Part shown: positions 2,465 to 48,671 of the stretch, piece after piece
Layout: the number at the start of each line of letters is the position of its first letter
How positions within the stretch are numbered: the first letter of the stretch is position 1
Assembly: GCA_001972305.1 (NCBI GenBank)
Contig: BDDD01000269.1
Coordinates: 685,408 to 749,407, forward strand
Length of the DNA stretch: 64,000 nucleotides
Direction of reading: 5' to 3'
Source: Cephalotus follicularis
Taxonomy: Eukaryota > Streptophyta > Magnoliopsida > Oxalidales > Cephalotaceae
The notes under the pieces: model-generated
What the model saw: the letters and a program-made list of their open reading frames with translations, nothing else
The model's database searches: none
What the model was told of the DNA's origin: nothing
Program-made: the position numbers and the translations under genes

Positions 2465-5400
2465 CTGAGGCGGACGCAACATATAATTATATATCACTCA
2501 AAGATTAAGTTTAATTGTGGACTATAGGATATTTACCATAATCTTAAATTTCTTAACAAAATGATAAAACTCAATTTGAATATAAAAATAGTCGTCTTTC
2601 AAAGTATATAACTAAACATAGAAATAAACAATTTTTTTTTTTTTACAATCGTCCTTGACGAGTCTTCATATTTTGAAAACGCTTGATGATCTTCTCATTG
2701 TCGATGATATCAAATATGTCCTTTTCAATGTATGTCACCAAGCAATTATTCATCTCCCACGCGATTGCGTAACCGATTTTTCACAATTTTCATCGCAGAA
2801 AAAACTCTTTCAACCGTTGCAATCGCAACCGGTAGAATCAATGCAAATTTCATAAGTTTATACACTAAGGGATAAACAATGTCTTTCTTCTTGTCAACTA
2901 ATTTCTTGGCAAGGTCACCAATCCCTTTCAACTCAAAACAATCATTACAAGAACGCATATCAATAATATAAGTCTCAAGTTGATCATCAAGCACCATTAG
3001 CTCAACTGGGAAAAAACCAGATTCATAAAATTGGGCAAAACGGATCAACTTATGTTTGTCAAAAGCAGAGAACGAATCACTTGGATTTAAGCAAGTCATG
3101 CAAAGAAGCAATTCAGTATTAACCTCATTGAAACGAGTGTTCAATTCTTGAAGCTGCATATCTATCACACTATAAAATAATTCAACTTGATTGTGATGTG
3201 AATTTGCCATTTGTTCAACTCTACGTCGTGGTTGCCCTCGAATTGCAAACATATCATCCATGTCCAAAATAACAATACGGTGCTTGGTACAAAATAAAGA
3301 AACTTCATCTAATAAAGATTCACATCCTGCATCTCTAAACAATTGTAGTCGTTGCTTGGACACTTTAACTAAGGTCACAACATTTACAATGTCTTGATCT
3401 TTTCTCTGTAATGCTTGTGACAACTCATTAGTAATTGCCAATATACTTCTCATAAGATGCAAGGTGAATGCAACATCAAAAGAATGGATTGAAACTAATA
3501 GAACACATGCCTCAGCTTTTTGGTCTAAATTTAAACCATCTTCGACAATAATCTCAAGCACATCACACACAGAGGAAAACAAAACAATCAAATTAATTAG
3601 TGTACCGTAATGCGAACTCCAACGTGTGTCACGGGGTCGTTTCAGACTTATCTCTTGATTCAACCCCCGTCTACTCACAACTTCACCAATCTTTAATGCC
3701 TCGGCAAGTTTAGCAACTTGACTCTCTCGAAGCAAGTCCCGACGCTTGCATGAACCTCCTACAACATTTATCAAACTAGAAATCACATTAAAAAATGAAG
3801 CCACAGAAATGTGATTTTTTGCAATAGCAATAATTGTCAATTGAAGTTGATGTGCAAAACAATGAACATAATAAACAAATTCATTCTCTCTCATAATCAA
3901 ACTTTTAAGACCATTGAATTCTCCTTGAATATTACTTGCGCTGTCATAGCCTTGTCCACGTAATCTTGATATACTCAATCCATGTTTTGAAAATAATGAC
4001 TCAAGATAGTGCAGTCGTGTCACTAACATGAACAATGCCAAGAAATCGTTCAATCACATGACCTTTTTTGTCTACATAACGTAGAGCAGAAGCCATTTGT
4101 TCCTTAATGGAAAAATCACGAGACGCATCAACCAAAATTGCAAAGAATTCATCTCTAAGATCGTTAATGATAGCACCTGTGGTTTCATTTGCAGTTGCAT
4201 TCACAATATCTTTTTGAATCCTAGGTGATACCAATTTAAGATTTTCAGGAGCATTCTTTAAAACAACATTGTTGACATCTTCATTATGGTCAGCTAGAAA
4301 GTGAAGAAGTCCAAGAAAGTTTCCTGGATTTTTTGAGTCTTCAGTTTCATCGTGACCACGAAAAGCCAACCCATGACTTAACAGAAATCTAATGCAATCA
4401 ATAGATGCAGTCAAGCGAATCCTGTATTCATTTCGAACTTGATCTGATTGCCTAGAGAGACCAACTTCAATATGTTGCTTTTGATTCATTAAACTCTGAC
4501 AACTCTGTCGTGCTTGGTTATGAACACTATTTGGTTTGCCAACATGAATTTGAAACCGTTATGGTTTCTTCCAATTACTAAAACCCTCACTGATGAAAGA
4601 GTCACCACCCGCTTTGTCTCCCATCTCAGGTCTAAAAAGGTAACAACACAAACAAAACGCAGCATATCTTGTTATGCTATACTCCAACCAATCGCCATAC
4701 TGACTAAACCAAGTCGAATTAAATCGACGATACCCTTTCCCAAATTTTGATTGTGGAAATTGATGATTACAAGGTTGACAAGGGCCTTTTTGCAAGTAAA
4801 ATCTTTGAATTGCATCTCTATCATTAGGATGATAGCTATTGATTTTAGGCCGTAAAGCTGGATCGGACGGAAGATCTTCAAAGTTAACTTGTACACAGTT
4901 TTGTTCAATGGCTTTTCCTTTATCCTTGGATTTTTTTCTTGGACTGTTGAAGGCGTTTGATCCACTGGTGATTTTCTTTTCAAAAATTTATCCATAACTG
5001 ATAAAAAGTTAAAAAAATAAAATTATAACAAATTTATTACATAATTTTAAATTTTAATAAATCTCAGTCAATAATGATACATAGAGTAGAACAAAAACAT
5101 TAACCATAAATTGATCGATCACCAAAAATATTCATCACATATCACATTTAATTAAAAAACTAATAAAAAACCTAACAAAAGAAATCAATTGCCTAAAAAG
5201 TGTAAAAATAAATTAAACAAAGAAGATGAAGAATAGAATGATTTTTGTTATAGATTAAGAATAGCTCTGAGTTTCTGACCCTTTATTTCAACACCATCAG
5301 TCAATCCTATTTTAAGTACTCTGTCCCTTATAGATACATCAAACACGTTTGTCATACCGCACATGTAATGACAATTGCATATACTGATATACATATCATT

Positions 5401-6254: not shown

Positions 6255-6346
6255 CTATTNAAAATACAAAAAACCCTTCGATATTTAAACTCGTCAACAC
6301 TTAACCTTCGAATTTTCAAAAATATTAAACACCCCCTTAAGGTTTA
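6255..6346 (+). repeat. Left terminal inverted repeat of the MULE-like element
   Basis: Reverse complement of 12992-13079 with scattered substitutions and small indels. Shared blocks include the AAAATAC/AAAATAT start, TTTAAACTCGT and AAAAATATTAAA. The single N in the window (6260) lies here and blurs the outer boundary. Confidence 0.7.
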
Positions 6347-6429
6347 CTTCTGATTAACACATAACCCATTCCGTTAATAGAAATGTTAATTCATGTCAGA
6401 ATTTATAAAAAAAAACTTCTAAAATTCCC

Positions 6430-6772
6430 TCTAATTACACACATAACACACCATTCTCTTCCAGGCTAGCCTTCCAAGCTTCTGCAATCTCCTTCGCCTC
6501 CACTTTCACCCTAGGCGCCACCAATAGCCTCGACCTGCAGATGATCGAGTCAACCACTACCGGAATCAGGCTCTCTAGAATCAACACACAGGCCCAGCAC
6601 AAATCATTAACTTTACTGCCCCTTTTGTCCATAGGATATGAACCTCCAAAATCGCCTCCAGCACAAACTTCGCCGACCCATACGCTCAGCCAGCGCCAAC
6701 GGAATCGAGCTCCTCAACAAACCTCCAAAATTTAAATGCTTTCATCTTCAAACAGAAGGACTTCAAAGCCGT
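6430..6772 (-). pseudogene. FRIGIDA-like gene fragment, C-terminal part
   Basis: Read on the minus strand, this piece shows phrases of the plant FRIGIDA domain in order. One frame (about 6770-6640) gives FCLKMKAFKFWRFVEE and then YGSAKFVLEAILEV. After a frame change near 6635-6650 a second frame gives WACVLILESLIPVVVDSI and then AKEIAEAWKASLEENG, ending at a stop near 6435. FRIGIDA-like proteins act in the nucleus, FRIGIDA itself in flowering-time control through FLC. This copy lacks the downstream half of the domain, has a frameshift and is separated by an LTR from its upstream part at 9625-9999. It is a captured, non-functional fragment. Identification rests on recalled family motifs, not on a database search. 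Confidence 0.72.
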
Positions 6773-9624
6773 TGTGACATCCGTGTCCTTGTACGGTCGG
6801 TGTCTGTGAGTCTGCGGGGCTTCTGTCTGTCTGTCTGTTAATCTGTTTTTCTGGCTCTCTTGACATATGCATCATGGCATTTATAATTTTTTTACCATTT
6901 CGATTTCATTATGATGGTTTTTCTGCGTAACAACTAAGTTTTCTCTGCTGAAAAATTTAACAATATTTTACTGAAACTACTGCTGATTTCAGAAAATAGG
7001 CCAAGTGGTATGTCCTAAACACCCAATTTTTGTCCGCATTGGTTAAATTCTGGATAAAAGCCTAGTCCGTTTAGAGTTGAATATATATGGGAAATGCCAT
7101 TTTTTGGCTTACTTTTTCCATTTCCCTCTCTCTCCCCGACACTCTCTCTCTCTCTTCTCTCCTGTCTCTTTACGGTTTCTGCCTTCTACCGCCGGCGTCA
7201 GTGCCGATCTGACACCGGCGAAGGTACCGGTCGAACCACAGCGACCTCCAGAGCACGCCGAGCCCCACCACCGCGCCGTTCGCGCGCACGGACCTCTTCT
7301 CTCACCTCCCCTATTTCGCTTCGTTCCAGCGTCTCCGGTGGTCGTCACGGCAAGGCGAGCCCAGATTCGGACTCCTGGCGTTGCGGCTGTTCGAACGGTA
7401 CCAGCCCCGACACATGACGACGTCGGCAATGCCGATCGGCGGCGAAGGACAGTCGCGGTCAACGCGGCCGTTCCGGCCAGATACGGCGGTGCCAGACCCA
7501 ACGCGCCTTAGATCCGTGCTCCTCGACCTCCAGCGCGTCAGATGCAACCTCTGCGGCTGACCGGTGATGCGCGTGGCTGTCACGCTCCGGCCAGCGGTAA
7601 AGCGTGGGTCGATGCGTCGGCGACCCTTCGACGAGAAATTTCTGACAGTTTTCCGACTCCGTTCTCCGCGGTGATGTGATCTATTCCAGTTCCGCTCTGG
7701 GATTCTGACTCCGTGCTCCATTCTGTTAGCTTTCGGTAAATTCTGAACTCTTTTCCGTTAGTTCTATTTTCTGATGTTTTCTGCATTTCTGTATCTGTTT
7801 CTGTTACATATAAACTTGAATTGCTTATATGACTCGAAATTGGATAACTTGGACAACCACTTGGACTGTTTTAAATGATTTCGAAAGAGTGTTTAATAAG
7901 AGGTTTAAAAGATGTTTTAATAATCGAACTTCTGTTCTGTTAACCGGTTTGATCGGTTATGTTTTTCTGACATCTGCACGCATTTCATTGCATAACGCTT
8001 TTCACGTCTTGGTACGTGTGTGAGTCTGATAGTCTGTTATCTGTCTGTTTGTCTGTCTGCTGGTAGGAGATCCTGGTGTTGAGGTCGGCCATGGAGGCTA
8101 CCAGTCGAGGGACTCGCTCGTCTGTACAGTGAGTGGAACGCTTTCTTTAACCTTTTTACTCTGAAGTACTTTTAATGTTTTGAATGTAGCGTTTTCGCTT
8201 ATTTTGTTTTCTGTATCTGAATGAACTTGAGTTTTAGTTCATTTCTGAAATTAGTTTAAGTTTTAATGTCTGAACTTTCTTTCAATGTTTTCAAACGCTC
8301 GCAAGATGATAGTCATAGTATGACGCTATTTTCTGCTATATCTGTATATGATAAGAAAAACGATTTCTGTATCTGTTTAAATATGTTTTGATGGCACTGA
8401 TGAGTTGCCGTATCTGTTTGAATATGTTTAAATCTGTTTGAAATCTGTTCTGAGACGTTGATGATTTCTGTATCTGTCTGAATCTGTTTTAAAGTCAGTT
8501 TTGAATCTGTTTTAAATCTGCTTTGAAGTATCGGTGATTTCTGTGTTTTGAAATAGGTTTAAACATATCTTGATGCTCTGGGATCTCGGTATTGTATTAC
8601 TTATACTTTTGTTGCTCATGAGAGGCACTGTCTACACGGTAGACTTTCTGTTTTGATACTTTGATACGACGGTATCATTGCCCTTCTATTCTGCTGGACG
8701 TTCGGCTCGACGGGACCCAGGCGTCAACCTTACCTAGTAGACCCATTGCATCTTTATATGTTTATTCTGTTTAAACTTTGTTGGATACTATATGTATATC
8801 TGAGATTCTGAGGAATTAAATCTATTTTGAGAAAAGAATCTGACTTTCTGCTAATTCTGTTAACTTTTGTTTTATAATTTGTTTATAAAACAGATTCTGG
8901 ATTTTTATTCTGTTTCAATTATTTTATACTTTTATATCGTTTCTGTATAGACATTTTATTATTGCGAGCAAATACTCTACTGAGTCTTTTTGTTTCATCT
9001 CACTAGTCCTGTGGACTAACCCTCTCATCTTTTTTCTGTTTTTAGTTCTGACAGGTTAGTCTGCTGAGTTCTGTCAGCTGGAGTCAGTCAGTCTGCTGAG
9101 GTGAGACCAAAGGGCATGCTACCAGAGTCAACATATGCATACCATCACTGCATCATCATTTTAAATTTTCTGCATTTCCTATGGTTTTATATAACTGTTT
9201 TAGTTTTGTTTGAAAGGGCGGAGCCCTAGTTTAGCTTTATGTTTTGTTAATATGGTTGAGGCAGAGCCCAACCCATTACTTGTTTTCTGTTTTTAAATTC
9301 TGATCTGCTGAGGGTCGAGCCCATTTTATAAATTGTTTCCTCCTTCGGGAGTGTGAATTTATAAAACTGTGTTTTTCTTTATAGGGGGCATAGTCTGATA
9401 AACGAATACTACATGCCCGATTTTCGTAAAATTTTAAGAGTTAGAATTATTTTCAAGTTTTTCAAGAAACTTTTCTGTTTTCTTTCTGTTTTGAAGAATC
9501 TCTTTGTTTAAAAATGTATTTCTGAATCTCTGATCTGCTGAACCTACGAGGTGAGTCTCTGATGGGAGGCTTGGCCTCGTAGTGGGCGGGACGGATTCCA
9601 GCCGGGCTGGGTCCGGGCGTGTCA
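6773..9624 (+). mobile_element. Large solo LTR (2,852 bp), family A
   Basis: The unit begins TGTGACATCC and ends GGGCGTGTCA. It is flanked by the identical 5-bp repeat GCCGT (6768-6772 and 9625-9629), as expected for LTR-retrotransposon integration. No gag-pol or internal LTR copy is seen, so it is a solo LTR left by recombination. A homologous copy lies in reverse orientation at 46244-48671. Features include a TATA-like stretch near 7080, a CT-rich leader (about 7130-7165), a GC-rich zone (about 7180-7560) and many CTGT-rich stretches. The very long LTR and these ends recall Del/Tekay-type gypsy elements, but the lineage cannot be assigned without internal domains. Confidence 0.88.
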
Positions 9625-9999
9625 GCCGTCGCCATCGGGGTTCAAATCGGGACCGTATTCTTCTTTGAGCAACATTTGGGCAGCTCTCTTGCGCCATTCG
9701 ATTGTTTCAACGGTGATCTAGACCCTACCGTCGATTGTGACCTCTCGCTTCTTCACAAGTCGAACAAGGCCTGGTGTCATGGTCTAGGCCTTGGATTTTG
9801 CCCTTGATGGCCATCGATTTCTTGAGGAGATTCTACTCTATGGTGGTGAAGTGATCGAAGCGCTCCTTCTAGAGGAGGGTGCAACTCGTCATGAGGAAGG
9901 CCTGCCTTTGGAACTCATCGAAGCTCAGCTGTGTCAACTCGTCGCCCAACACACCCACAACCCCTACCCCAACTTCAAGTCAATTGCCACTAAAACAAA
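9625..9999 (-). pseudogene. FRIGIDA-like gene fragment, N-terminal part
   Basis: Read on the minus strand from 9999 downward, this shows LSFDEFQRQ, then SMAIKGKIQ, then KREVTIDGRV followed by an in-frame stop and ITVETIEWRKRAAQMLL. The coiled-coil start and the (E/R)VTIDG phrase precede the FRIGIDA domain in FRIGIDA-like proteins, and the order agrees with the downstream piece at 6430-6772. At least two in-frame stops are present. The piece lies between two solo LTRs: its left edge is the GCCGT duplication and its right edge (9995-9999) the ACAAA duplication. Before those insertions it was continuous with the flanking pieces. Confidence 0.7.
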
Positions 10000-10149
10000 T
10001 GTAATGTCCCAAATTTTCATTTAATGTATTATTGAAATTTTTGTTGTAATTATATGTTGAATTAATGAAGATTATTGATTTCCAGTTTGTAATATTGGAT
10101 CTTAAGTAAAGAGTGTTAAGGAATGTTGTAATGAGTTGAAAATATAAGG

Positions 10150-10440
10150 AAAAGAGGAGCTTAAAGCGTCAACGCCAAGAGATAGTGTCGACGCCAAGAA
10201 GTAAAGCGCCATGCTTAAGGCTCCTTGCCTTAAAGCGTTGGTGCCAAGAGATAGCGTCGACACCCATCGATTGTGAACTAAAGACACATAAGTGATGCGT
10301 CGACTCGTAACTCAGTATTGTGGAGTAACCCGTTAACGCGATACGTGGAGCCTGTTAGCGCTAAGGAAGGATGGTCAACGCGTCGACACGCACCCTGAGT
10401 GTGTGCTCCTAGTGCGTCGACGCATAAACATGACAACAGG
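10150..10440 (+). repeat. Degenerate GTCGACGCC-type repeats inside LTR
   Basis: Repeated phrases such as AAAGCGTCAACGCCAAGAG, GTGTCGACGCCAAGAA and GCGTCGACACC recur at irregular spacing of about 20-60 bp. A second block occurs at 11085-11400. The core TCGA palindrome is kept more often than the flanks. Function is unknown; it may be a tandem array or a set of protein-binding sites in the LTR. Confidence 0.65.
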
Positions 10441-11084
10441 TGAAGCTAAGGCACTGACAGAAGACGCGCTAAGGACAGGTGTAGCCCACTGATCGGGAGC
10501 CTTATCACGCCAGTGATAGCGTGTTAGGCATTGCGCCATTTCCCCAGGCCTGCAATGGTAGAAGAAAGAGAGAAAAACACAACTCTCTATAAAGCATGCC
10601 TCTCTTCTTCTTCAATCTGCACCTGAGAAAAGTGAAAGGCTTGAAATCTTAGACCAAGGTTGGGGTCGAGCTTGTATTGGAGTTACTGTACCGGACTTGG
10701 AAGCTCAAAAGAGCATTACTGGCCTATGATCTTGAAGAGGTGAACTACGATTCCTAACTTGGAATCTGAGGTAGGGATTATATAACTATATATTTTGAGT
10801 TCATTTATAATAAGTGTTCATTGATGAGATGCAGAGAGGAAATAAAAATGGTAGAACGAATCTGTGCATGAATGTGTCTTGCCATTGATGATACTCTGTT
10901 TGGATGAATATGAAATGAGTACTGCATGTGTTGTTCTATTTGGTTTTAAGAATGGGAATGGATTGAGTGTTGCATGTGTTGTTCTACTTAGTTTCAAGAA
11001 TGGAAATTGGTTGAATTGCATGTGTGGTCCTACTTGGTTCCACTGGTGTTGAGACTACGATAGAGAAGACGCCTTCTGGTTTTG

Positions 11085-11400
11085 CATAACCATCGACGCT
11101 TATAGTAAAGCGTTGAGGCCTTGGCCTATTATGAGAGCAAAAGGATGCTTAAAGCATTGACGCCTAAGGTTCCTACCTTAAAGCATCGACGCCAAGAGGT
11201 AAAACGTCGACACTTAATGGTCCTTGCCTTGAAGCGTCAACACCAAAGAGACAAGACGTTGACGCCTAAATCTTCTGCTTTAAAGCGTCAACTCCAAGAG
11301 GCAAAGCACCGACGCTTAAGGGTCCTTACCTTGAAGCGTCGACGCCAAAGAGACAAGACGTTGACGCCTAGAGAGTATGTGTTGACGCCAAAAGGGTCTG
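11085..11400 (+). repeat. Second block of GTCGACGCC-type repeats inside LTR
   Basis: It has the same unit as the block at 10150-10440, with phrases including AAAGCATCGACGCCAAGAG and AAGCGTCGACGCCAAAGAG, here closely spaced. The 99-codon open frame crossing it translates to K/R/L-rich repeats and is judged a by-product of the repeat. Confidence 0.62.
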
Positions 11401-12452
11401 TTTGCATTTTGAGCATATGATTGCCTGCATATTACCGTGGATTGATTGTTATTGATTCTAAAGTGTTTTATCATTTTAGAAAAAGAGCATACTTGATTTT
11501 ATAACAAATCATTATTTTACATGAAAAAATGTATATTTCGAAGATTGAAACACTTTTCCAAAGACTGTTATACATTTTGAACAAATGCGTTATTTCAAGT
11601 ATTTTATAACATATAAATTACTTGAAAACGGATTGATTGTTGGATTGTGATTGGGATTGATGTCATGTTAGTCGCGGTGGCGGAGGTTGTCACTGATGGC
11701 TAATGGTGGGTTAGGCTCTAGGTGCCAGGAGATGGCTAGGGCAACCCATACTGGTTACTTGGCCTTAGTGCAAGTAACATTGGATTAACTGACCTGCTTC
11801 AAGTTGGTCGGAGACGAGGCTGAAGTAGGAGTACGACATCAGTGCCAGGAGATGGCGATGCGCTTCGTACGTACATATGGATTGATTGGTCCTTTGTGAC
11901 ATGATTGATGGATTGTATTGATGTAGGCATTTGGCATGGTTGCTCATATATTGATGGATATACATATGTATCTATATATATACGTAGTGTTTTATATATT
12001 ACATATTGCATCGTGATTCATTCATTTCATGACATTTATTATCGTTAACCTCAAATGCTTTTATATCTTTCCTACTTAGCCAGTAGATTCGACAAACCCT
12101 ATCAATTTCATATTGATGTAGTGGGATCGATATTGCTTAAGCTTTGAGGACCGAAGAGAAGATAGAGTTGTCTTTCTTTTGGAGAAATGTTAAATTGGTT
12201 AATATATTGATGGATAATAGTTCATGCTCCGTTTGAGGGCGATTAACGATGATTATATTGTGTTGTTGTTAAACATTTGGTAACATCTAGAATGAGATGC
12301 ATGTTACGTTATTTAAATTCAGCTTATATTTAATGCTTCTGTAAGAAATTATATGATTGAAAAGTTTTAAATTTTCCCAATTTTCGTTTAAGCTGGATAT
12401 ATGTTAATTTTCATGACATTCGGGTCGTTGATTATGGAAACGGGGTGTGACA

Positions 12453-12991
12453 ACAAAACCCCACCTGCCACCAAATCAACCAAGCATCTACATTACATCG
12501 AAAACCTCTCAAACACAAAACAAGCAAGCCACCATTCCAAAATCCCCTTTCACCCGCCACTGCCATCACCTATACTCCACTGCTGCCACCATGACTGTCA
12601 TCACATAGGGCACCTAGGAGCCATAAGCGCCAGCAACTCTTCTTTGCGTCAGACCCATGTATAGGCCCCAAGAGACGTGAACCGCCATTGGTGAAAGTCA
12701 CGCGAGCTACCCAGCATCCATTTTCACCGCCGTTGGATGACATAAATCATTAGTCTTTCTCGATCTGGCACGTGCTTGTGTAGTCTTTGATGGTCTCTTG
12801 CCTGGAGACATGAGGTCGCCGGAGTTGACCAGACGCCGACAAGTGATAAAGAAACAAGAGAGAGTGTGTGATTTAACAGAGAGGGAACTGTATTTAGGGT
12901 TCAGCTAATTTTGCTTATAATTATAGTGTTATATAGGAGGGTATTTAGGGTAAAGTAAAAAAATTAACATAAAATATTGACAAAGTTAGTT
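12453..12991 (-). other. Upstream part of the Pack-MULE-like element (possible promoter/leader of captured fragment)
   Basis: This lies between the ACAAA duplication and the right terminal inverted repeat. On the minus strand it would precede the FRIGIDA-like fragment. It is GC-richer than its surroundings and has no clear open frame or recognised domain. It may be further captured gene sequence or the original leader. I see no motif that decides this. Confidence 0.4.
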
Positions 12992-13079
12992 TCAGGGGGG
13001 TATTTAATATTTTTAAAAATTTAGGGGGTCAAATGTTAACGAGTTTAAATTTCAGGGGATTTTTTATATTTTACCATAG
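12992..13079 (-). repeat. Right terminal inverted repeat of the MULE-like element
   Basis: Inverted partner of 6255-6346. It ends outward with GGGGATTTTTTATATTTTACC; a CATAG beyond it has a counterpart (CTATT) at the left end. Confidence 0.7.
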
Positions 13080-23158: not shown

Positions 23159-24112
23159 TGTTGGAGGGAAAATCTGTTTATAATAAGAATGACACGTGTC
23201 CATTGCAGACATGACCAGTTGTCCAGAGAAGATTAGAAGCTTGTCAACAGGCCGTGCCGAGAAACAAACACATGGCAAAGAACACCCTCCTCGGACCAAG
23301 AGCCGAGGACCACTATTTTTTGAAGAGGACATACAGAGACCTCAAGTCCGAGGACCCTCCTCGGACTTTGAGTCAGAAGACCACATCCAGGGTGTCGGGG
23401 CCGAGGATTTCCTCTGCCCACAGTATCTATCAGACACGAAACAGGAGACACGCCCTCCACTACACAGAAACTGTCAACCTTCTCCTCGGACGTATTAAAG
23501 CTAGTTTTGTCCTCGGACTAATGAAGACCTGGCAATCTAAGCACACACTGCTGAGGAGCCAAAGGAGATAGCAAGAGGCATATGACCTCGACAGCAGCAT
23601 CATAGTCGATTTCCTCTACAGCCCTGCAACGGAGGACCTCAGCCTTATCTATGGGATAAGGAGATTAACTCCACCTGATTTCCTGGGATTTGCACTTATC
23701 CAAATGAAGAGATAGTGTCACAACCAACTACGAACAAAGGAAACAGCGACATTATTGGCGGAGATCAAGGGGAATGACCGAGATCCTCGGCATTTCCCTA
23801 GGGGACAGCTACTACCTCCAAATTTCACGCTCAAACCGTTACAAAACATCACTATAAATACAAGTTCAACAGACTGAACAAAGGTCAGCCATTTTTGCAT
23901 TACAAAGAACATTGTTTCATCTGCACCTTGTCTAACTTGAGCGTCGGAGTGTCCCCGGGAGAACAACCTCCTGGACTTTCCACCATTTTTGTTACTTTGC
24001 GCAGGTGTCCGAGATCAAAGTCTTCCTCCAGGCATCTGTGATAAGCGTTTCTCTTAACAAATTAAAGTCCTCCACGTAGGATACTGTTGAGAAAAGGATT
24101 TTTGTATCAACA
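23159..24112 (+). repeat. 5' LTR of the gypsy element (954 bp)
   Basis: Begins TGTTGGAGGG and ends TATCAACA. A TATA box (CTATAAATA) lies at about 23852. The hexamer CCGAGG or its complement occurs about eight times. Confidence 0.95.
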
Positions 24113-24132
24113 GTTGGCGCCGTCTGTGGGAA
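24113..24132 (+). promoter_or_regulatory. Primer-binding site of the gypsy element
   Basis: TTGGCGCCGTCTGTGGG follows the LTR by two bases. This sequence is a familiar primer-site form in plant gypsy elements. I do not assign the tRNA. Confidence 0.75.
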
Positions 24133-24157
24133 ACGCAGCAAAAAGTCATTAACAATC

Positions 24158-25861
24158 ATGCCTCCAAGGAAGAACAACTTAGTTGGAGCCACTGGTAGCC
24201 AGCAACAGGAGGTCGTAGCTCCTCCGCCAGAAGCCGTTCAAGAAGCAGCCCAACAACAAGCTCCCGTTACAGGGGAGCAACTCAATCAGCTCCTCCAAGG
24301 GATGGAGCGAATCACTGATCTGTTGGTCACAACGTTAGCCAACCAACAGCAAGCCGAGCCTGCTCAGCAAGTGGTCCGAGGAGCGTCTGGTCCCCAAAGA
24401 CCAGAGGAGGAGGAACGGCACCTACGAGGTGCCAGGCGAAACCCGTCGAGGGGAGATGAACTTCCCCTTAGGCGGTCAGGGGACAACAATCCCCTGGGAA
24501 GGAGGGCTGAGATCAATGCATCTCAGAGGGCTGAGTCCTCGACCGCAAGGGATCACCCCAACGATCCCAGGAGAGTGCACCCTCAGCACCAGGCCATGGA
24601 CGTGGATCCTCGGCAGGAGGCCAGGGGAGCAGAGGAGGCACAAGTACGCTCCAACGCTCCGCGCAGAGCTAGCACGGTCCGAGGAAGCAGAGCCAATCCC
24701 CCAACCTCTGTGGCTGGAAGGTCACATGTTTCTAGCAGAGTTAGGAACATAGAAGAGGTGGAGCAAGAAGTGGATAGAAGACTTGCTGACCTGGAAAGGA
24801 GGTTCCGAGGAGTGGAACAGCACAGGGGGCACCTATCCGAGGTACGAAATATCAACGCACACCCCTTCACGGCCGAGATCATGGCCGAACAAGTCCCCAG
24901 TGGGTTTCGAAACCCAAGTCTTGATAAGTACGATGGGTCCACGGACCCCATCCAGCATGTGCGCACCTATATTCAGGCTATGTGGATGCATCGGGCCTCG
25001 GATGCCATGCTTTGCCGAGGATTCTCAGTGACCTTGATTGGAGCTGCTCAATCATGGTATTTCACCTTGGCAAGGAATTCAGTGAAGAGCTTCAATCAGT
25101 TTATGGAACTGTTCGTGACTAAGTTCCTCAACAGCACCACGCAGAGGAGGAATTCTACCCACCTCATCAACGTGGTGCAGGGTAAAGATGAGTCGCTGAG
25201 AGACTACCTCACCAGGTTCAACAAGGAATCACTCACAGTGAAAGACCTGAAGCCGTCCTTTGCTCTGGCAGCTTTGAACAATGGGCTGAAGAGTAATTCT
25301 TCCTTCACTTTCTCTCTACTGAAGAAGCCAGCCAAGGACATGGCAGACCTGCTGAAAAGGGCGGAGAGGTATGTCAATGCAGAGGAAGAGATGCTGGCCA
25401 GGAAACAAAAGACACCCTGGTCTAGCCACCAGGAAGAGAGAAGGGAGCATTCACGAAATGCTCCCGAGAGAAGAGAGAAGAGGAAGGAAAGGTCAGGCTT
25501 GTCCAAGGAAGACCTCAGACATAAGCTCTCCAGACGAGAGGGCACATCCAGGGGTGGGGCACCCATACCATCATACAACACTTTTGCCCCCCTCCTGGAC
25601 ACACGAACCAGGATACTTGCTGTGGAGCAAGATAAAGTTCCCTTCCAGTGGCCTGAGAAGCTGAAGACCCCGGCAGAGAACAGAAATGTGGAGAAGTACT
25701 GCCAGTATCATCGTGACCATGGGCACGATACAGAGGAGTGTAGGCAACTAAAAAATCAGATTGAGGATCTGATTAGGAAGGGACACCTGCGCAAGTATGT
25801 AGACAGAGATGCCCCTCAAGGAAGGAGGGAACAGAGAAGAGAAGAGGCTCCTCAGCAGTAA
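24158..25861 (+). CDS. gag: Gypsy gag polyprotein segment, 567 aa
   Basis: This encodes the structural capsid protein that packages the element's RNA into cytoplasmic particles. It starts 45 bp after the LTR with MPPRKNN. The first 230 residues are Gln/Arg/Glu-rich and disordered. The retrotransposon gag domain follows at about residues 255-400 (NPSLDKYDGSTDP, AAQSWYFTLA, FNQFMELFVTKF). A zinc-knuckle-like motif CQYHRDHGHDTEEC lies at about 515-528, a form common in Tat-clade gags. The frame is open to a TAA at 25859-25861. The same frame continues into protease and polymerase beyond that stop, so gag-pol was probably one polyprotein and this stop may be a mutation. Confidence 0.9.
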   Translation: MPPRKNNLVGATGSQQQEVVAPPPEAVQEAAQQQAPVTGEQLNQLLQGMERITDLLVTTLANQQQAEPAQQVVRGASGPQRPEEEERHLRGARRNPSRGDELPLRRSGDNNPLGRRAEINASQRAESSTARDHPNDPRRVHPQHQAMDVDPRQEARGAEEAQVRSNAPRRASTVRGSRANPPTSVAGRSHVSSRVRNIEEVEQEVDRRLADLERRFRGVEQHRGHLSEVRNINAHPFTAEIMAEQVPSGFRNPSLDKYDGSTDPIQHVRTYIQAMWMHRASDAMLCRGFSVTLIGAAQSWYFTLARNSVKSFNQFMELFVTKFLNSTTQRRNSTHLINVVQGKDESLRDYLTRFNKESLTVKDLKPSFALAALNNGLKSNSSFTFSLLKKPAKDMADLLKRAERYVNAEEEMLARKQKTPWSSHQEERREHSRNAPERREKRKERSGLSKEDLRHKLSRREGTSRGGAPIPSYNTFAPLLDTRTRILAVEQDKVPFQWPEKLKTPAENRNVEKYCQYHRDHGHDTEECRQLKNQIEDLIRKGHLRKYVDRDAPQGRREQRREEAPQQ

Positions 25862-28800
25862 GAGGAGCAGCAACAACAGCAACCTAGAGATGTCATCCAT
25901 ACCATCTCTGGAGGGGTCGCATCAGGGGGTGACCACTCTAATGCAAGAAAGGCCTATGAGAGACAATCCCTTACTGTGTAACAAGTCCCTCACAGCAAGA
26001 GGCTCAGAACTGGAGGAGTCGAGGAGGTGATAACCTTCTCAGAGGCGGACTACGAGGGAGTACGTCTTCCTCACGATGATCCAGTGGTGGTAACTCTTCT
26101 GGTAGAGCTCTTTACCATGAAAAGGATCCTCATAGATAGTGGCAGCTCGGCCGACATCCTGTACAAACACGCATTTGATCAGCTGAGGATACCGGTCGAC
26201 CAGCTAAAGCCCGTCAAAACCCCATTGGTTGGTTTTGCAGGTGAGACGATCCATCCTCTGGGATCTATCAACCTGTCCGTGGTTGCTGGCACGGCCCCAC
26301 GTCAAACTCAGGTAGAGATGACGTTCCTGGTAGTGGATACCCCAAGCCCATACAATGCTATAGTGGGGCGACCAGGTCTGAACTTGTTGGAGGCTATAGT
26401 ATCCACGAGACACTTGTTAATGAAGTTTCCCATAAGGTTTGGCGTGGGGGAGGTCAGAGGAGACCAAGAGGTGGCAAGGCGATGCTATAAAACTACCATC
26501 TCGGACAAGGGGAAGGGCAAGGTTCTCCCCATAGCAAACGTAGAGCTCAGAGGAGACGTGGAACCTGAGCGTCCACAGCCGGTAGAGGATGTCCTCCAAG
26601 TGCCCATAGAAGAGGGCAACACAGAGAAAGTACTCCAAGTTGGCTCACAACTTGGAGAGGCGGAGAAGGAGGAGTTAATAATATTCCTCCGAGATAACAG
26701 AGATGTCTTTGCGTGGTCGGCAGAGGAGGTCCCTGGCATCAGCCTAGATATAATGGTTCACAAACTAAGTGTGGACCCAGCCAGGCCCCCGGTCAGACAA
26801 AAGAAGAGAAACTTTGCCCCTGAGAGGCAGCAGGCAATAGCCGAGGAGGTAGGCAAGTTGTTACAGGCAGGTTTTATCAGAGAAGTGCACTACTCGGACT
26901 GGCTAGCAAATCCGGTGTTAGTCAAAAAAGCTAATGGCAAGCGGAGGATGTGCATAGACTTCACAGATCTCAACAAAGCCTGCCCAAAGGATCACTTCCC
27001 TCTCCCAAAAATAGACCAGCTGGTAGACGTAACCTCGGGTTACAGAATATTGAGCTTCTTGGACGCTTACTCGGGATACAATCAAATCCCCATGTACAAG
27101 CCAGACGAGGACAAGACAGCATTCATAACAGACCGAGGAATGTATTGCTACAAGGTTATGCCCTTTGGCTTGAAGAATGCAGGGGCCACCTACCAGCGCC
27201 TGGTCAACAAAATTTTTGAACCTCAGATTGGGAAGAATATGGAGGTTTACATAGACGATATGCTCGTCAAAATCACTGCCAGGAACCCCCACATAAAAGA
27301 TTTGGAGGAGACTTTTGAAATACTGAGGAAGTATAATATGAAGCTCAATCCGTCCAAGTGTACGTTTGGGGTCACCTAGGGGAAGTTCCTCAGATTCATG
27401 GTCTCTAGCAGAGGAATAGAGGCCAACCCGGAGAAGATCTCGGCAATTCAAAGCATGAGGCCACCTCAAACCATCAGGGATGTCCAGAGGTTAAATGGGA
27501 AGATTGCAGCCCTGAGCAGGTTTGTGTCCAAGTCAGCAGAGAAGTGCCTTCCCTTCTTCAAAATACTTAGGGATCCCAAGGGATTCTCTTGGTCAGACGA
27601 TTGTCAAGCAGCCTTCGAAAAGTTGAAGGAATACTTGGCTTCTCCTCCTCTGATATCGAAACCTAAGGAGGGAGAAGACCTGTATTTGTACCTTGCGGCC
27701 ACCTCGGGCGCAGTGAGTGCAGTGCTAGTCAGAGAAGAGGAAAAAGTTCAAAGGCCAGTGTATTACGTGAGCAAGGCTTTGAACGATGCCGAGGGAAGGT
27801 ACCCAGAGGTGGAGAAGTTCGCTTATGCCTTGATCATCTCGGCCAGAAAGTTGAGGCCATATTTTCAAGCACATACAATCAAGGTTCTGACTGATAAGCC
27901 ACTCAAGCAAGTTCTCGTCAAACCCGACACCTCGGGCAGGCTAGTTAAGTGGTCAGTCGAACTAGGCGAGTATGATGTGAAGTTCGAAGCTAGACCAGCA
28001 ATCAAATCACAGGTACTGGCCAACTTTGTTGGAGATAACACACCTGCGGAGTGTATGGAGGAGAACCCTTCCGAGACCGAGAAGAGAATATGGAAGTTAT
28101 CAGTGGATGGATCCTCATGTCTCGCTGGCAGTGGGGTAGGGTTAGTATTGACGAGTCCAGATGGTTGGACATTGGAGTATGCTCTGAGGTTCAAATTCAA
28201 AGCTACAAATAACGAAGCTGAGTGGGAAGCTCTGATAACTGGACTGACAATTGCAAAGCACTTGGAGGTGCATAGGATTGAAGCCTCGAGTGATTCTCAG
28301 CTAGTGGTTGGTTTGTCAAATGGGGAGTATGAGGCCAGAGAAGACCTTATGATGAAATACTTATCCCATTTTTAGGGCATGAAGTCAGCCTTTGAAGTTT
28401 TGAGAATTGTGAAAGTACCCAGAGCAGACAACGTCAGAGCAGACCAATTGTCAAAGCTAGCAACAACAGAGGAGTTAGAGAAAAATCAAACAGTGCTAGT
28501 TGACTACCTGGATCGACCGACAATCTCTCAAGCAGAGGTAATGGACATAGATGTTCCACAGGAGCCAAATTGGATGACTCCCTTTATCAGTTGGCTAAGG
28601 GACGGAATCCTGCCCGAGGACCCCGTAGAGGCGAGGAAGCTAGTTTACAGGGCAAACAGATTCCAATTCCGAGATGGGATCCTCTACAAAAGGTCTTTCT
28701 CGTTTCCTTGGCTGAGATGTTTGAACCCCTCAGAGGCCGATTATGCTCTAAGGGAAGTTCATGAAGGGATTTGTGGCAACCACACAGGGGGCAGGACTTT

Positions 28801-29805
28801 GTCTCACAAGTTGCTAAGGCAAGGTTACTACTGGCCGACCATGCATCAAGATGCTATAAACTTAGTGAGGAAGTGTGACAAGTGTCAGAGGAATGCCAAC
28901 ATAAGTAGAAGGCCTTCCCAACCTCTGACATCAATTACGGCCCCGTGGCCCTTCGCACAGTGGGGAATGGACTTCGTCGGACCATTACCTATGGCAACAG
29001 GCCAGAGGAAGTTTCTCATTGTAGCGGTTGACTACTTCACTAAGTGGGTGGAAGCAGAACCCTTGGCCACAATTACAGAGAAGAACACAGAGAGCTTTGT
29101 ATGGAAGCCGATAATCTGCAGATTTGGAGTTCCGAGGACGATTATCACAGATAATAGTAAGCAGTTTGATTGCCAAGCCTTCCGGGACTTTTGTAGAGAA
29201 TGGAGGATAGAGCATAGGCTCGCCTCAGTAGCCTACCCTCAAAGTAATGGACAAGCCGAGGTGATCAACAGGGAAATCATCTCGGGCTTGAAAAAGCGCC
29301 TAGAAGACAGCAAGGGAAGGTGGACCGAGGAACTACCAAGTGTGCTATGGGCATATAGAACCACTCCTCGGACTACCACCGGAGAATCCCCATACAGTTT
29401 ATGTTTCGGAGCAGAGGCCGTGATACCAGTGGAGGTTGGAATACAATCACCAAGAGTGTACACTTTACTGAGGACAACAATGAAGAAAGGCTGAGGAGCC
29501 TCCTTGACCTAGTGGAAGAACTCAGAGATAAGGCCGTGATCAGAGTTGCAGCCTACCAGCAGAGGGTAAGCCGCTACTACAACAAAAGAGTAAGTCCAAG
29601 ACCACTAAGGCAAGGAGATCTAGTCCTACGCAACTCAGCGGTTGCGGATCCTACTGGTACTAGAGGAAAGCTAGCCCCCGCCTGGGAAGGGCCATACAAG
29701 ATCAAAAGGGTCCTCCGCCCAGGAACATTCAAACTTGAAACTTTGGGGGGTAGGGAGATCGCTAGAGCTTGGAATGCCGAGCATCTGAGGAAGTATTATC
29801 AATAA
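25862..29805 (+). pseudogene. pol: Gypsy pol: protease, reverse transcriptase, RNase H, archaeal-type RNase H, integrase
   Basis: Continuing the gag frame, protease shows LIDSGSSADIL (catalytic Asp codon at 26135). Reverse transcriptase spans about 26870-27320 with YIDD at 27248-27259. RNase H is at about 27590-27900 and a second archaeal-type RNase H at about 28090-28370 (SVDGSS, TNNEAEWEAL). Integrase has an HHCC finger (28760-28900) and a DDE core (GMDFVGP, ITDNSKQF, NGQAEVINRE). The C-terminal part ends YKIKRVLRPGTF...HLRKYYQ at 29805. In-frame stops lie at 25979-25981, 27377-27379 (TAG) and 28373-28375 (TAG). A frameshift near 29460 moves the end of integrase to another frame. The second integrase motif has S-K where G-x is usual (TDNSKQF). 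These breaks make the copy defective. Confidence 0.93.
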
Positions 29806-30950: not shown

Positions 30951-33425
30951 CTATGGTTGAGGAGGATCTTCTTGCTCAGCCGAGAGATCTTCATGAAGAG
31001 GTGGAGGAGCAAAGAAGGCCTCAACAGAAGGTAGAGGAGGATCGCCAAAGCCAGCAAAAATGTCCTCTGGAGCTGAAGAAGAAGGAAGAGCAGAGGGCTC
31101 GGTTGTAGGCTCCGAGGAGGCAGCAGCAAGATCCCCAGCGAGAATAACCAAGTCAGGAGAAGTGGGAGTTTCCAGATCATCCACCAAGGCAGACGAGGCT
31201 CCTTCCTCCAACCTCTGACGAAGCTTCTCCTCCAATGCATCAATTCCCTCTGGGTAGAAGTCAAATGCATTGGTAGGGGGACCATACACCACTTCGTCCA
31301 ACGAGAACTCGGGCTGCAGAGAAGAGACCCAATTCCGGTAAGCATAGAAGCCCCGATGAAAGTACTCGGCCGCTTCCAGGAACACTGCCTCATCGAACTC
31401 ATCCGAGCTCTTGAACTCCTCCACGGAGGACCTTATCAACCCCTTGAACTCTTCCGAGTTCTTGAAGTCGGCCACTGCCTGGTTTTGTTCCCTCCTCAGT
31501 TGCTCCAACTCCCTCCTCTGCTGCTCCATCTCTCTCCTCTGCTGCCGTTCAAGTCTGGCTACCAGATCATCAATTTTCTCCTCGGCTCATTTCAGCTTGG
31601 CCTCCAGCCCCTTCTTCTCAGCCCTCTCCTCCTCCAAGTCCTCAACCGCTTACTTCTTCTCCTCGGTCAAGGACTCCTGAACCTTGAAAACCTCGTTTAG
31701 TTGAGCTTGGGCCCAGCGAGCAGTTTCTTCCAATGTGGCCATGCTCGACCAGCTCTCTGTCCCTGGCTACTACTGCAGAGAAGTTGTCCACAAGCAGTTG
31801 AGTGTTGTTCAGAGACTGTCAGAGGAGTACAAATGTTAGTAATTATGAAGAACCAAAACACGAGAAAAATCAAGGCAACTAAGGAAGAGATCATTTACCC
31901 TCAAGTGGCTCCTCAGACAATGGGTCACCAACTCCTCGTTGGACCATCTCTGCCTTGCCTCCATTTCCATGGGAAAGAAGACCAGTCGACTGATTGCTTG
32001 GGGGACTCCAGGACCATTGAGGTTTAGTTGGTGGCAGTCCCTGCCCTCGAACTCATTAAGCAGCTCGTCTACCTCCCGAGTCAGAGGGATGATAATTGGG
32101 CCCTGGGAGCTTGATCCGAGGGCAGCCACGTCCTCGACCTCCTGTGCCTTCTTGGTCCCATCGACGGCCTTCCCCTTCCTGCTCTTCTTTGTCAGAGGAG
32201 CGTGCTCAGCAGTGGGGGCGCTGTCTGCAGCCCTTTTGCTTGCCTCCTTTCTCTTCTCAGCAGCAGCAATGGGCACCCTAGCAGGAGGAGGAGTTTTGGC
32301 CTGGGGCCTTGACCCCTCGGCCACAGGGGCCTTCCCCTTAGGCTTTGGCGCAGTAGTTGCAAGGGCCTTCCTCTGGTCGGTGGCCTTCATTATATCAGAG
32401 AAATCGCGGCGAGGAGCCATTGCTGAAAGAAGACATAATAGTTAGAATCAGAGATCCAAACATGCAAAAATCAACAAAAATAGCATTAACAGAAGGAACA
32501 GAGGAGACAAAGGTGTTATACAATTTTGTTCCAACATTGGGGGCAGAGGACTATCTTGCTCTCCCTCTCCCTCTGAGACATCCTCTTTGGACCCATCCGA
32601 GGAGGATGCTCGTCCGAGGACTACACTCAGTCCTGCCTGAATCAGACGATCCTCACTAACGGTGGAGTTTACTTCCTCTGGCTCAAGGGCCAAGAGTTTG
32701 CTAAGGGCAACCTTCTCAGCCGAGGTCAGGAGTGACCTCTTGTTCAGAGATTTGACATCCAAGGAATTGCACCAGGGAGAGGGAGTAAATCCTTCGAAGT
32801 TCTTTATCAAGAAGTACTTCCTCCTCCAGTTTTATATGGATTTGGTAGGGTTGAGGAGAAGCTTTTTCACCCCAGAACGGGACTTGAAAAAATACCCGAT
32901 CGTTTTAGGGGTGGCCGAGATGACGTGAAACTCTTTGAACAGGTTCACAATCGCGTCCACCTCGGACTCTATACATTTGACGAGGAAGCCAATTATGAAG
33001 CTCCAAGACTGAGGTTGGAGAAGAGAAGGGTGAAGACAGAAGCTAACTAAGACAGAGATGGCAAAGGAAGAAACTGGGACCCTCAGACCATGGGAAAGTG
33101 CCCCTTCGAAGATCACAAAGAGACCTTCTCGGCTCATGGTAACTATCTGAGGATCCTTAGGAAGACAGAAGGTCAACCCACGAGGAAAATTGTATTTTCT
33201 AAAAATATTTTTCACCTCAGCTTGGCTGAGGGTGCTTACACCAAAGACACAATCCTCAGGGAGAGGATTGGCCTCTGCAGTGGGTGCCTCAGGGTCACCC
33301 ACCGCAGCCCCCAAAGAACCCTCAACACCAAGTGGCCTTTTAGCGGTGGGAACCACCATGGCCAAAGGCTCGACAGACAGGGGAGAGGTAGAAGAAGATC
33401 CACTAGACTGTTCTTGACTAGCCAT
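30951..33425 (-). pseudogene. Antisense ORF of the Tat-clade gypsy element (putative gypsy-type transposon protein)
   Basis: Coding-like sequence runs against pol. The first block, 33425 down to about 32450, starts MASQEQSSGS and carries a globular part (PRGLTFCLPKD, VPVSSFAISVLVSF, QPQSWSFIIGFLVKCIES). That pattern resembles the plant 'putative gypsy type transposon' family (Pfam Transposase_28). One in-frame stop at 32832-32834 interrupts it. The second block (32420-31836) starts MAPRRDFSD and is Lys/Ala/Pro-rich and basic. The third (about 31800-30951) is a Glu/Gln/Lys-rich coiled coil followed by an acidic Pro/Ser tail. Block junctions look like introns (TTTCAG before 32420, a GTAAAT donor near 31892, CTGACAG near 31819). 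The third block has further breaks. Function is unknown; related antisense ORFs are known from Tat-clade elements. Confidence 0.72.
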
Positions 33426-34052
33426 GAGTTAAGAGATGAAGAAGAAGAAATCGCTAAAGAAAAAACCTTAGAACGATCTGGAAAAGCAAAGAGATGACAG
33501 AAACTTACCAAAAACTTTGATTCGAAGGGATTGGAATAGGGTACTGGAGGCACTGCAAATTTGGCAAGCTCTCAAAAGCACTGTAAGTTCTTAAGGTTGA
33601 AGAAGCGAAAGTTTTGTTGTGAAAAGAACAAAAGCTTTTATAGACCCCCATCTCGGATCCTGGCCCTCCACCTCGCACAAGATCCAACGGTTGGGAAACA
33701 GATCGTCACATCATGTGCGGGAAATGAGGAGACAGGCGCGGGAAACGAAAAGGCAGAGGCGGGAGACGTTTTGGGCGTGCCACGTGTGAAGCGTATTTAG
33801 TACGCAACTTAAATGCTAATCATAACGGTTCACAATTCGAGGCCAGTTAATAAAATCAATGGCAGACCAAAAGGCAGGCTTTAGTCCTCGGTTCAGGCAG
33901 ATAAAGTTTTGTGTCAGAGGAACAACAAAGGCTACACTCTCAGCCTCAGCCAATTTATACAAGGAAAAGCTAACAGGAAGTACTGCAGAGGAGTCTTGCC
34001 CGGGCCACGGCTCTCAACTCTGATCCTCCTCCTCTGACCAAGGTCAGAAAAC

Positions 34053-46243: not shown

Positions 46244-48671
46244 TGTCACGCCCAGACCCAGCCCCGCTGGAATCCGTCGAGTCTGCTACGAGGCCAAGCC
46301 TTCCATCAGAGACTTACCTCGTAGATTCAGCAGAACAGAGTTTCAGAAAAGCATTTTAAAACAGAAGAAATCTTCAAAACATAAAGAAAACAGAACAGTT
46401 TCTTGAAAAACTTGAAAATAATTCTAACTCTTAAAATTTTACGAAAATCAGACATGTAGTATTCGTTTATAGGACTATGCCCCATGTAAATAAAAACACA
46501 ATTTATAAAAATCACACTCCCGAAGGAGGAAACAGTTTGTAATGGGCTCAGCCCTCAACAGACCACACTCCCGAAGGAGGAAACAGTTTATAAAATGGGC
46601 TCAGCCCTCAGCAGATCACAATTTAAACAGAAAACAAGTATGGGTTGGGCTCTGCCTCAACCCTATTATCAAAAACTTGAAACCTGAATAGGGTTCAGCC
46701 ATTTTTAAGTAAAACCATAAAATATTTATCTAAAACATAAGTAATGCATAAATAAAATGTTTATGCAATGATGGTATGCATATGTTGACTCTGGTAGCAT
46801 GCCCTTTGGTCTCACCTCAGCAGACAGACAGACTCCAGCTGACAGAGCGCAGCAGACTAACCTGTCAGAACTAAAAACAGAAAACAGAGGAGAGGGTTAG
46901 TCCACAGGACTAGTGAGATGAAACAAAAAGACTCAGTAGAGTATTTGCTCGCAATAATAAAATGTCCATACATAAAAGATATAAAAGTATAAAACAATTG
47001 AAACAGAATAAAAATCCAGAATCTGTTTTATAAACAGATTATAAAACAAAAGTTAACAGAATTAGCAGAAAGTCAGATTCTTTTCTCAAAACAGATTTAA
47101 TTCCTCAGAATCTCAGATATAAATATAGTATCCAACAAAGTTTAAACAGAATAAACATATAAAGATGCAATGGGTCTACTAGGTAAGGTTGACGCTTGGG
47201 CCCCGTCGAGCCGAACGTCCAGCAGAACAGAAAGGCAATGATACCGTCGTATCAAAGCATCAGAACAGAAAGTCTACCGTGTAGACAATGCCTCTCATGG
47301 GCAACAAATGTATAAGTAATACAATACCGAGATCCCAGAGCATCAAGATATATTTAAACCGATTTCAGAAACACAGAATACAGAATCTCAGATTTTCTCC
47401 AAATAGACTTCAAACAGATTTAAACAGATACAGAGATCGGCAGAGCCGTCAAAATAGATTTAAACAGATTCAGAAATCGTTTTTTTATCAAATACAGATA
47501 TAACCAAAAATAGCATCATATTATGACTATAACCATGTGAGCATTTGAAAACATTAAAAGAAAGTTCAGACATTAAAACTTAAACAGATTTCAGAAATGA
47601 ACTAAAACCAAAATCATTCAGATACAGAAAACAAATAAGCGAACACGCTTAAACATTCAAACATTTAAAAGCATCTCAAGATAAAAGGGTTAAAGAAAGG
47701 CGTTCTACTCACAGTACAGACGAAACAAGCCACGCGACTGGTCGTCTCCATGGCCGACCTCAACAGCAGGATCCTCGATATCAAACAGAACAGAACACTG
47801 AGTCAGAATCCCGCTGCAGAACTGGAACTGATCACATCACCGAGGAGAACGGAGTCGGAAAACTGTAAGAAATTTCTCGCTGGAGGGTCACCGGAGCGTG
47901 GGCCCACGCGCCACAGCTGGCCGACGCGTGACAGCCACACGTGTAGCCGGTCAGCCGCAGAGGTCGCATCTGGAGCGTTGGAGGCTGGGGAGCACGGATC
48001 TGAGGTGCGTTGGGTCTGGCGCCTCTGCATCTGGCCGGAACGACCGCCTTGACCGCGGCTGCCTTCGCCGGCGATCAGCGCTGCCGACGTCATCACAGGT
48101 CGGGACTGGCACCGTTCGAATGGTCGCGACGCCAAGAGTCCGAATCTGGACTCGCCTTGCCGTGACGGTCACCGGAGACGGAGAAACAACGAAAAACAAT
48201 GGTTGAGAGAGAAGTGATCGCCGGGCGCAAACAGCGCGGTTGCCGGAGCGGGGGAGGGATGCGGTGTGGCAGAAGGTTGTAAGTAGAGAGAGACGAGAGA
48301 GAGGAGAGAGAGAGCGGGAGAGATGAGAGAGAAAGGTAAAATGAGAAAGTTTTTGCATTTCTCATATATATTCAACTCAAAACGGACTGGGTTTCGTCCA
48401 GAATTAAACCAATACGGACAGAAATCGGATATTTAGGATATACCACTTGGCCTATTTTCAGAATTCAGCAGTCTTTTCAGAAAAATATCATTTAATTTAT
48501 GGAAAGGCAAATTCATTTCTTATGCAGAAAACAATCAGAATAAAATCATAAAAATTTAAATAATGTCATGATGCATATCATGAATGCCAAAAAACAGATT
48601 AACAGACCGACAGACAGACAGAAGCCACGTAGGCTCACAGACACAGACCGTACAAGGACACGGATGTCACA
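46244..48671 (-). mobile_element. Large solo LTR (2,428 bp), family A, nested in copia RNase H
   Basis: On the plus strand it begins TGTCACGCCC and ends GGATGTCACA, with perfect flanking CCTTG (46239-46243 and 48672-48676). It is the inverted homologue of the solo LTR at 6773-9624: same ends, same GC-rich zone (here about 47800-48260), same CT-rich leader (GA-rich here, 48270-48320) and same CTGT/ACAG-rich body, about 420 bp shorter overall. No internal domain is present. Confidence 0.9.

Follow-up and report, generated by a model that had tools for sequence, protein, structure and literature searches.

Pack-MULEs are Mutator-like elements (MULEs) that hold fragments of host genes, have long terminal inverted repeats (TIRs) and 9-bp target-site duplications (TSDs), contain no internal transposase and occur in multiple copies. 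Their way of acquiring genes was "yet to be understood" in the words of one passage of a 2012 report (PMC3310237), and their origination is called perplexing in the abstract of a 2021 report (PMC8277862). Two described families resemble the one presented here. The tomato Pack-MULE family PM-ZIBP is, in the part of the 2012 report that bears on it, multi-copy, derived from one acquired gene fragment and placed in a tree with the parental gene, and it varies in tandem TIRs (PMC3310237). In Zm-Pack-PIF cluster 18, as set out in an excerpt of its report, a second host fragment was added in a subgroup already holding the first; this cluster belongs to another superfamily and its fragments are 163 and 58 bp long (PMC8903248). 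Here we describe an element at positions 6257-13076 of a 64,000-nt stretch of Cephalotus follicularis DNA ("the window"; contig BDDD01000269.1, positions 685,408 to 749,407), which is almost certainly a non-autonomous MULE, that is, a Pack-MULE, with a captured FRIGIDA-like (FRL) piece.

The element and its relatives share the Pack-MULE features named above. Unlike other Pack-MULEs, a single TIR family here combines pieces of four host donors in several ways within one retained terminal shell, and no internal TIR remnants were detected. It varies in its captured modules where PM-ZIBP varies in tandem TIRs, and its fragments, of about 230, 692 and 824 bp, are larger than those of the Zm-Pack-PIF cluster; the 824-bp one includes an upstream region and a start codon. 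A literature search on Pack-MULEs and FRIGIDA gave one unrelated paper, and none of the papers listed in a further search mentions a FRIGIDA-like gene; among the papers listed for Cephalotus and judged by title and abstract opening, none concerns Pack-MULEs of this plant. The Cephalotus element is a Pack-MULE of a known sort with an unusually readable history.

Terminal repeats and the captured FRIGIDA-like piece

An earlier note, made from the letters of this DNA alone, had proposed that long terminal inverted repeats at 6255-13079 enclose minus-strand pieces of a FRIGIDA-like gene. The repeats are present: 6261-6322 and 13011-13072 are complementary at 76% over 62 nt, with a local alignment score of 80 as compared to a maximum of 32 for random flank pairs (0 of 2000 as high). 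The termini of the family are GGGTAAAATAtAAAAAACCCC, and the window element therefore ends at 6257 and 13076, within 3 bp of the borders first proposed. Its TIRs are about 85 bp long. When the 64-kb window was scanned with a TIR profile built from 22 repeat ends of the family, only the two element ends matched at E <= 1. We entered the element on the minus strand because the FRL fragment is in sense orientation there (Table 1).

To assess how widely these repeats occur, as the earlier note had suggested, we searched the genome of C. follicularis (Oxalidales), the Albany pitcher plant (1.58 Gb in 9746 contigs). Sister elements were found, and a 25-base TIR core occurred at 204 places with at most one mismatch (reversed-pattern control, 0). 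With 6440-6772 as the query, 40 DNA matches were obtained, two of them in the FRL4a gene described below and 38 elsewhere (29 of at least 240 bp and nine shorter). We examined 26 of these 38 places, namely the window copy, L009-L031, L047 and L048; copies at the remaining 12 presumably belong to the family as well. Exact 9-bp TSDs flanked seven of 22 copies, the window copy being among the 22, and ten had at most one mismatch, as compared to none and six, respectively, of 462 cross-copy control pairs; L019 and L027, with one end found only, are not in this table. For MULEs a TSD of 9-11 bp is expected, and the family as a whole falls in that range. L025 and L026 lie about 8 kb apart on C435 and are nearly identical copies; because their flanks are nearly the same, they probably arose by segmental duplication in place rather than by separate insertions.

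The minus strand of 6450-6629 matched Pfam Frigida (PF07899) with 40.3 bits against a cut-off of 25.7 (E 3e-10, model positions 69-122 of 289), and all five protein motifs quoted in the earlier note lie on that strand, across more than one frame. The stretch 9625-9941 was assigned by similarity to FRL4a and represents the portion of FRL4a ahead of the Pfam domain, which begins at residue 126. A donor-type FRL4a gene with an intact exon 1 lies on contig C3384 (locus L036). Its product is 100% identical over 301 compared residues to a C. follicularis protein, and several of the next matches are named FRIGIDA-like protein 4a. The captured segment is about 692 bp long and corresponds to L036:2961-3652, which is codons ~12-241 (ATG at 2929) and lies inside a single exon, exon 1. 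Between the FRL pieces and FRL4a, identity is 67-79%. Of the 48 Pfam Frigida matches in the genome, many stop at model position 121-122, where the capture border lies. The remaining FRL loci of the genome (L032-L035 and L037-L039) had no DNA match to the elements. In a protein tree with nine other species, 19 transposon rows formed one clade (100/100) that joined Cephalotus FRL4a in another (98/95).

The FRL piece in the window is not an intact coding gene. It contains frameshifts, stops and nested insertions, and it breaks off at about donor codon 241. Two insertions separate the pieces of the element and have enlarged it from about 1.5 kb to 6.8 kb; insertion 1 splits the FRL piece. Both insertion sites were empty by blastn in 13 of the 23 Frigida-bearing loci fetched besides the window copy, L009-L031 (the 13 are L011-L018, L023, L025, L026, L028 and L030), where the counterparts of window stretches 6261-6772, 9626-9999 and 12452-13075 adjoin and those of 6773-9624 and 10000-12452 are absent. 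Insertion 1 is 75-85% like window 46244-48671, a stretch that we take for the long terminal repeat (LTR) next to the Ty1/copia pol open reading frames (ORFs) of the window. Insertion 2 is classed as a solo LTR solely by its ends. Inside insertion 2, window 10160-11380 holds internal direct repeats with units of 36-102 bp, which are AAAGCGTCGACGCC-like.

The only stop-to-stop frame of at least 150 aa within 6257-13076 (154 aa) lies in insertion 1, and the element holds a host gene fragment and no transposase, as Pack-MULEs do. Helitrons have no TIRs and no TSD and insert between A and T. This family, with its TIRs and 9-bp TSDs, does not carry that capture signature.

Table 1. Features of the Pack-MULE in the window
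Feature	Coordinates	Strand	Basis and remarks
Whole Pack-MULE	6257..13076	-	TIRs, profile, sister copies; ~1.5 kb without both nested insertions
TIR, FRL 3' side	6257..6342	+	Profile match 6261-6342, profile positions 5-87 of 88, E 6.7e-21; N at 6260
Subterminal tail	6343..6448	-	20-copy alignment; FRL homology stops at GGTG; common to the module types compared
Captured FRL4a exon-1 fragment, 3' half	6449..6772	-	Pfam Frigida; homology to L036:2961-3652; includes first copy of insertion 1 TSD
Nested insertion 1	6773..9624		2852 bp, TG..CA ends, 5-bp TSD GCCGT; empty site in sister copies; taken as solo LTR
Captured FRL4a fragment, 5' half	9625..9941	-	From about codon 12; similarity to FRL4a
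Segment X, end adjoining FRL junction	9962..9999		About 20 bp (9942-9961) lie between it and FRL homology
Nested insertion 2	10000..12452		2453 bp, TG..CA ends, 5-bp TSD ACAAA; empty site in sister copies
Segment X	12453..12886		Common to module types 1, 2 and 3
TIR, FRL 5' side	12991..13076	-	Profile match 12991-13075, E 2.6e-23

Taken together, the Frigida match above its cut-off, the TIR copies elsewhere, the 9-bp TSDs of sister copies and the presence of FRL4a in the same genome uphold the Pack-MULE reading and the FRIGIDA-like origin of the piece, and the stops, frameshifts and two insertions bear out its decay. The earlier note had also held that this element carried off part of a gene. 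This needs amending: judging from the trees and the 38 FRL places, an ancestral element acquired the fragment once, and the copy in the window is only one among its numerous offspring.

Four observations weigh against this account. The flanks of the window copy differ at six of nine positions, and its own target duplication is not recognisable. No transposase partner was found: none of 150 scored PF10551 places (of 982 candidates) lay within 10 kb of about 100 of the 204 TIR places, the nearest being 41 kb away as judged by eye. For segment X, no host gene was recognised among those fetched of its 44 own-genome DNA matches; those fetched were elements of the same TIR family. Lastly, at nine sites where Cephalotus FRL4a is unlike at least eight of the nine other species, the transposon copies side with the other species at five, with Cephalotus at one and with neither at three. 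The FRL capture may therefore be old, or its source may have been FRL4a in an early form, or a now-lost paralogue or close relative of it.

Module types and other host donors

The copies fall into types that differ in their modules and retain a terminal shell of about 130 bp on one side and 190 bp on the other. Type 1 consists of segment X joined to FRL, read in FRL sense, and 14 of 24 copies belong to it clearly (the window copy, L009, L011-L018, L023, L025, L026 and L028); L010, L019 and L021 look like disturbed type 1. About 20 bp at the border of X and FRL in the window copy (9942-9961) match neither side convincingly. Type 2, with a further module Y ahead of X and FRL, is represented by L030, and type 3, with Y and X and without FRL, by L040-L042. 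In type 4 a module Z is joined to the 3' part of FRL (L020, L022, L024, L029 and L031, and probably L027).

Module Y has no Pfam match. It matches the C-terminus of rice Os02g0668100 (PDB 5xn6_C, E 9e-13), and we take it to be GGPP-synthase small-subunit-like. Its host frame is open on C239, with 92-93% DNA identity over about 230 bp that include the stop and the bases following it. The host frame of module Z, presumably GATL-like, is open on C11 (PF01501, E 3.3e-57). Z corresponds to 824 bp (L046, reverse strand 106-929), which start 517 bp ahead of the ATG and extend through codon ~102. It is whole in L022 and L029, where its identity to the host is 90.6% and 90.0%, and it is gapped, split or shortened in L020, L024 and L031. 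A 153-aa frame that spans the joint of GATL and FRL is open in four of the five type 4 copies, with no constraint shown for it.

L048 (C3671:169210-170800) combines a GATL-like upstream piece, a DUF2921 domain on the opposite strand and an FRL end. Its DUF2921_N match is complete (194 of 194 positions, E 6.5e-20). The domain is still open, at 282-290 aa, in all three transposon places where it occurs, namely L048, C919:145849-146355 and C2157:287927-288433; the latter two are 95% identical to L048 and were put in the family by nearby FRL matches. The host frame of 1003 aa is open on C4953 (92%), and C938 has a further partial match (85%). This capture is possibly young. In a further family member, L047 (C8877:16350-18000), two FRL pieces lie apart from each other, and about 1 kb of unassigned DNA separates them from one terminal shell.

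Order of events and capture mechanism

We built trees of the FRL and X segments. L010, L019, L021 and L027 were left out of both, and the X tree, of 18 rows, also omits type 4, which lacks X. The protein tree and the mutation counts given below leave out the same four copies and L026, which is near-identical to L025. The FRL and X trees are star-like, with two and three strongly supported inner branches. In the FRL tree type 4 formed one clade within the FRL carriers (99/95). In the X tree the Y carriers formed one clade (100/99), inside which the FRL-less copies formed another (99/97). The trees lend support to a single old capture of FRL and a single burst, after which modules were, on the simplest order, gained and lost within one terminal shell.

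In the proposed sequence of events, an ancestral element would have taken up a copy of some 692 bp of FRL4a exon 1, or of that of a close relative, between its TIRs and beside the older segment X, by template switching or as filler DNA in repair. A transposase acting in trans would then have amplified the element in one burst, leaving 9-bp TSDs. One sublineage would have gained the GGPP-synthase-subunit-like fragment beside X and later lost FRL. In the type 4 line, X and the 5' half of FRL would have been replaced by the GATL-like promoter and N-terminus, and another line would have gained the DUF2921 domain. The window copy is now decayed and coding-dead, and the two LTR-type insertions struck it later.

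For the Y branch, the simplest order is that FRL came first, Y later, and that FRL was lost last, the deep part of this order being the more conjectural. It could be speculated instead that L040-L042, the Y elements without FRL, represent the ancestral state before capture and that FRL entered them afterwards. An unrooted X tree leaves room for this, and all three FRL-less copies fetched are cut nearly exactly at the FRL borders (635/1296 of L025, where FRL homology covers 656-1301). However, X is joined to the tail in these copies at a GGGTG-like microhomology, and both FRL borders have such microhomology that a deletion could use. Moreover, Y is far closer to its host gene than FRL is to FRL4a (92-93% as compared to 67-79%), the Y carriers are one branch with the FRL-less copies as one branch within it, and the FRL tree groups L030, the Y carrier that has FRL, with the rest of the FRL carriers, although this placement is weakly supported. 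We therefore regard a pre-capture state as unlikely, and loss of FRL on the Y branch as the simpler course.

How the host pieces entered the shell is a separate matter. A fusion mechanism has been described for Pack-CACTA. In this Pack-CACTA/Pack-TYPE model two neighbouring TIR elements flank host DNA and are mobilised as one, and fusion is argued for several superfamilies in the part of PMC8903248 that treats it. A small member of this TIR family does occur near the donor. It spans 285 bp (L036:6285-6569), has two TIRs and an exact 9-bp duplication, TATTTTAAA, and lies about 1.1 kb beyond the final exon of FRL4a; no other such element was found in the eight FRL loci scanned (67 kb). Extra TIRs also lie just outside L013 and L030, and the TIR of L024 is partly doubled at one end. 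On the other hand, this element is on one side of FRL4a only, about 2.6 kb from the captured segment, and the captured pieces occupy one and the same terminal shell. A scan of 28 loci gave 58 TIR matches at E <= 0.01, all at element ends or just outside (L013 and L030); none was a remnant between the ends, such as fusion should leave, although short or old remnants would escape such a scan. The lack of internal remnants speaks against fusion of neighbours, which we consider improbable here, if somewhat less so than the pre-capture state discussed above.

A different possibility, which we put forward tentatively and at slightly less than even chances, is that a single MULE shell acted as a serial exchanger of modules. 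Host segments would be gained, swapped and deleted at microhomologies within fixed termini, without fusion, and this would have built the promoter-bearing GATL-FRL chimera (five fetched copies) and moved a complete DUF2921 domain. If true, serial exchange would favour capture by template switching over fusion for Pack-MULEs. In this family a single genome shows the donors and junctions, the different states of the modules and a likely succession of events, and the differing predictions of fusion and template switching are therefore checkable.

Evolution of the captured pieces and surroundings of the element

Raw ratios of nonsynonymous to synonymous change (dN/dS) of 0.41 among type 1 and 2 copies (105 non-independent pairs) and 0.49 among type 4 copies suggested constraint on the FRL piece, as would be expected if it were retained for a function, either as a peptide or in antisense or small-RNA control of FRL4a. 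In types 1 and 2 this signal was gone under a context-matched null in which each mutation was re-placed on a site matched for base and CG/CHG context. For 14 type 1 and 2 copies, normalised omega was 0.89 for 254 singletons (P 0.20) and 0.98 for 150 shared changes (P 0.47), and the two wrong frames gave 0.81-1.24. In addition, stops interrupt the donor frame at least once in each of the 20 copies counted. With mutation bias in the model, the evolution of the FRL pieces is neutral; decaying transposon copies can thus show a raw dN/dS near 0.4 under full neutrality. For the GGPP-synthase-like piece, selection was considered and set aside: there are too few changes in its 58 codons, and pairs with L045 give omega above 1.

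The earlier note had also suggested that a transcribed copy could affect the parent gene through small RNAs. Two of 20 copies do have perfect 21-mers to FRL4a exon 1. The window copy has none (its longest match is 19 and its best 21-mer has one mismatch), and the suggestion therefore finds little support. Retention of the FRL fragment for any function is very improbable, and for FRIGIDA biology the element is probably inert. By contrast with the window copy, the GATL chimeras share 115-196 perfect 21-mers with their own host gene (five of five copies) and the GGPP-synthase-like pieces 21-49 (five of six). If there is any small-RNA influence on a host gene, the carriers of these two modules would be the better candidates.

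Several other transposon-related features occur in the window. Beside the Pack-MULE, the minus strand of 2746-4558 holds hAT-like transposase remnants (DUF4371 and Dimer_Tnp_hAT in 2746-4053). Ty3/gypsy-like gag-pol ORFs occupy the plus strand of 24080-29494, with RVT_1 in 25982-27379, and are followed at 30951-33428 by ORFs on the opposite, minus strand, one of them with PF04195 (Transposase_28).

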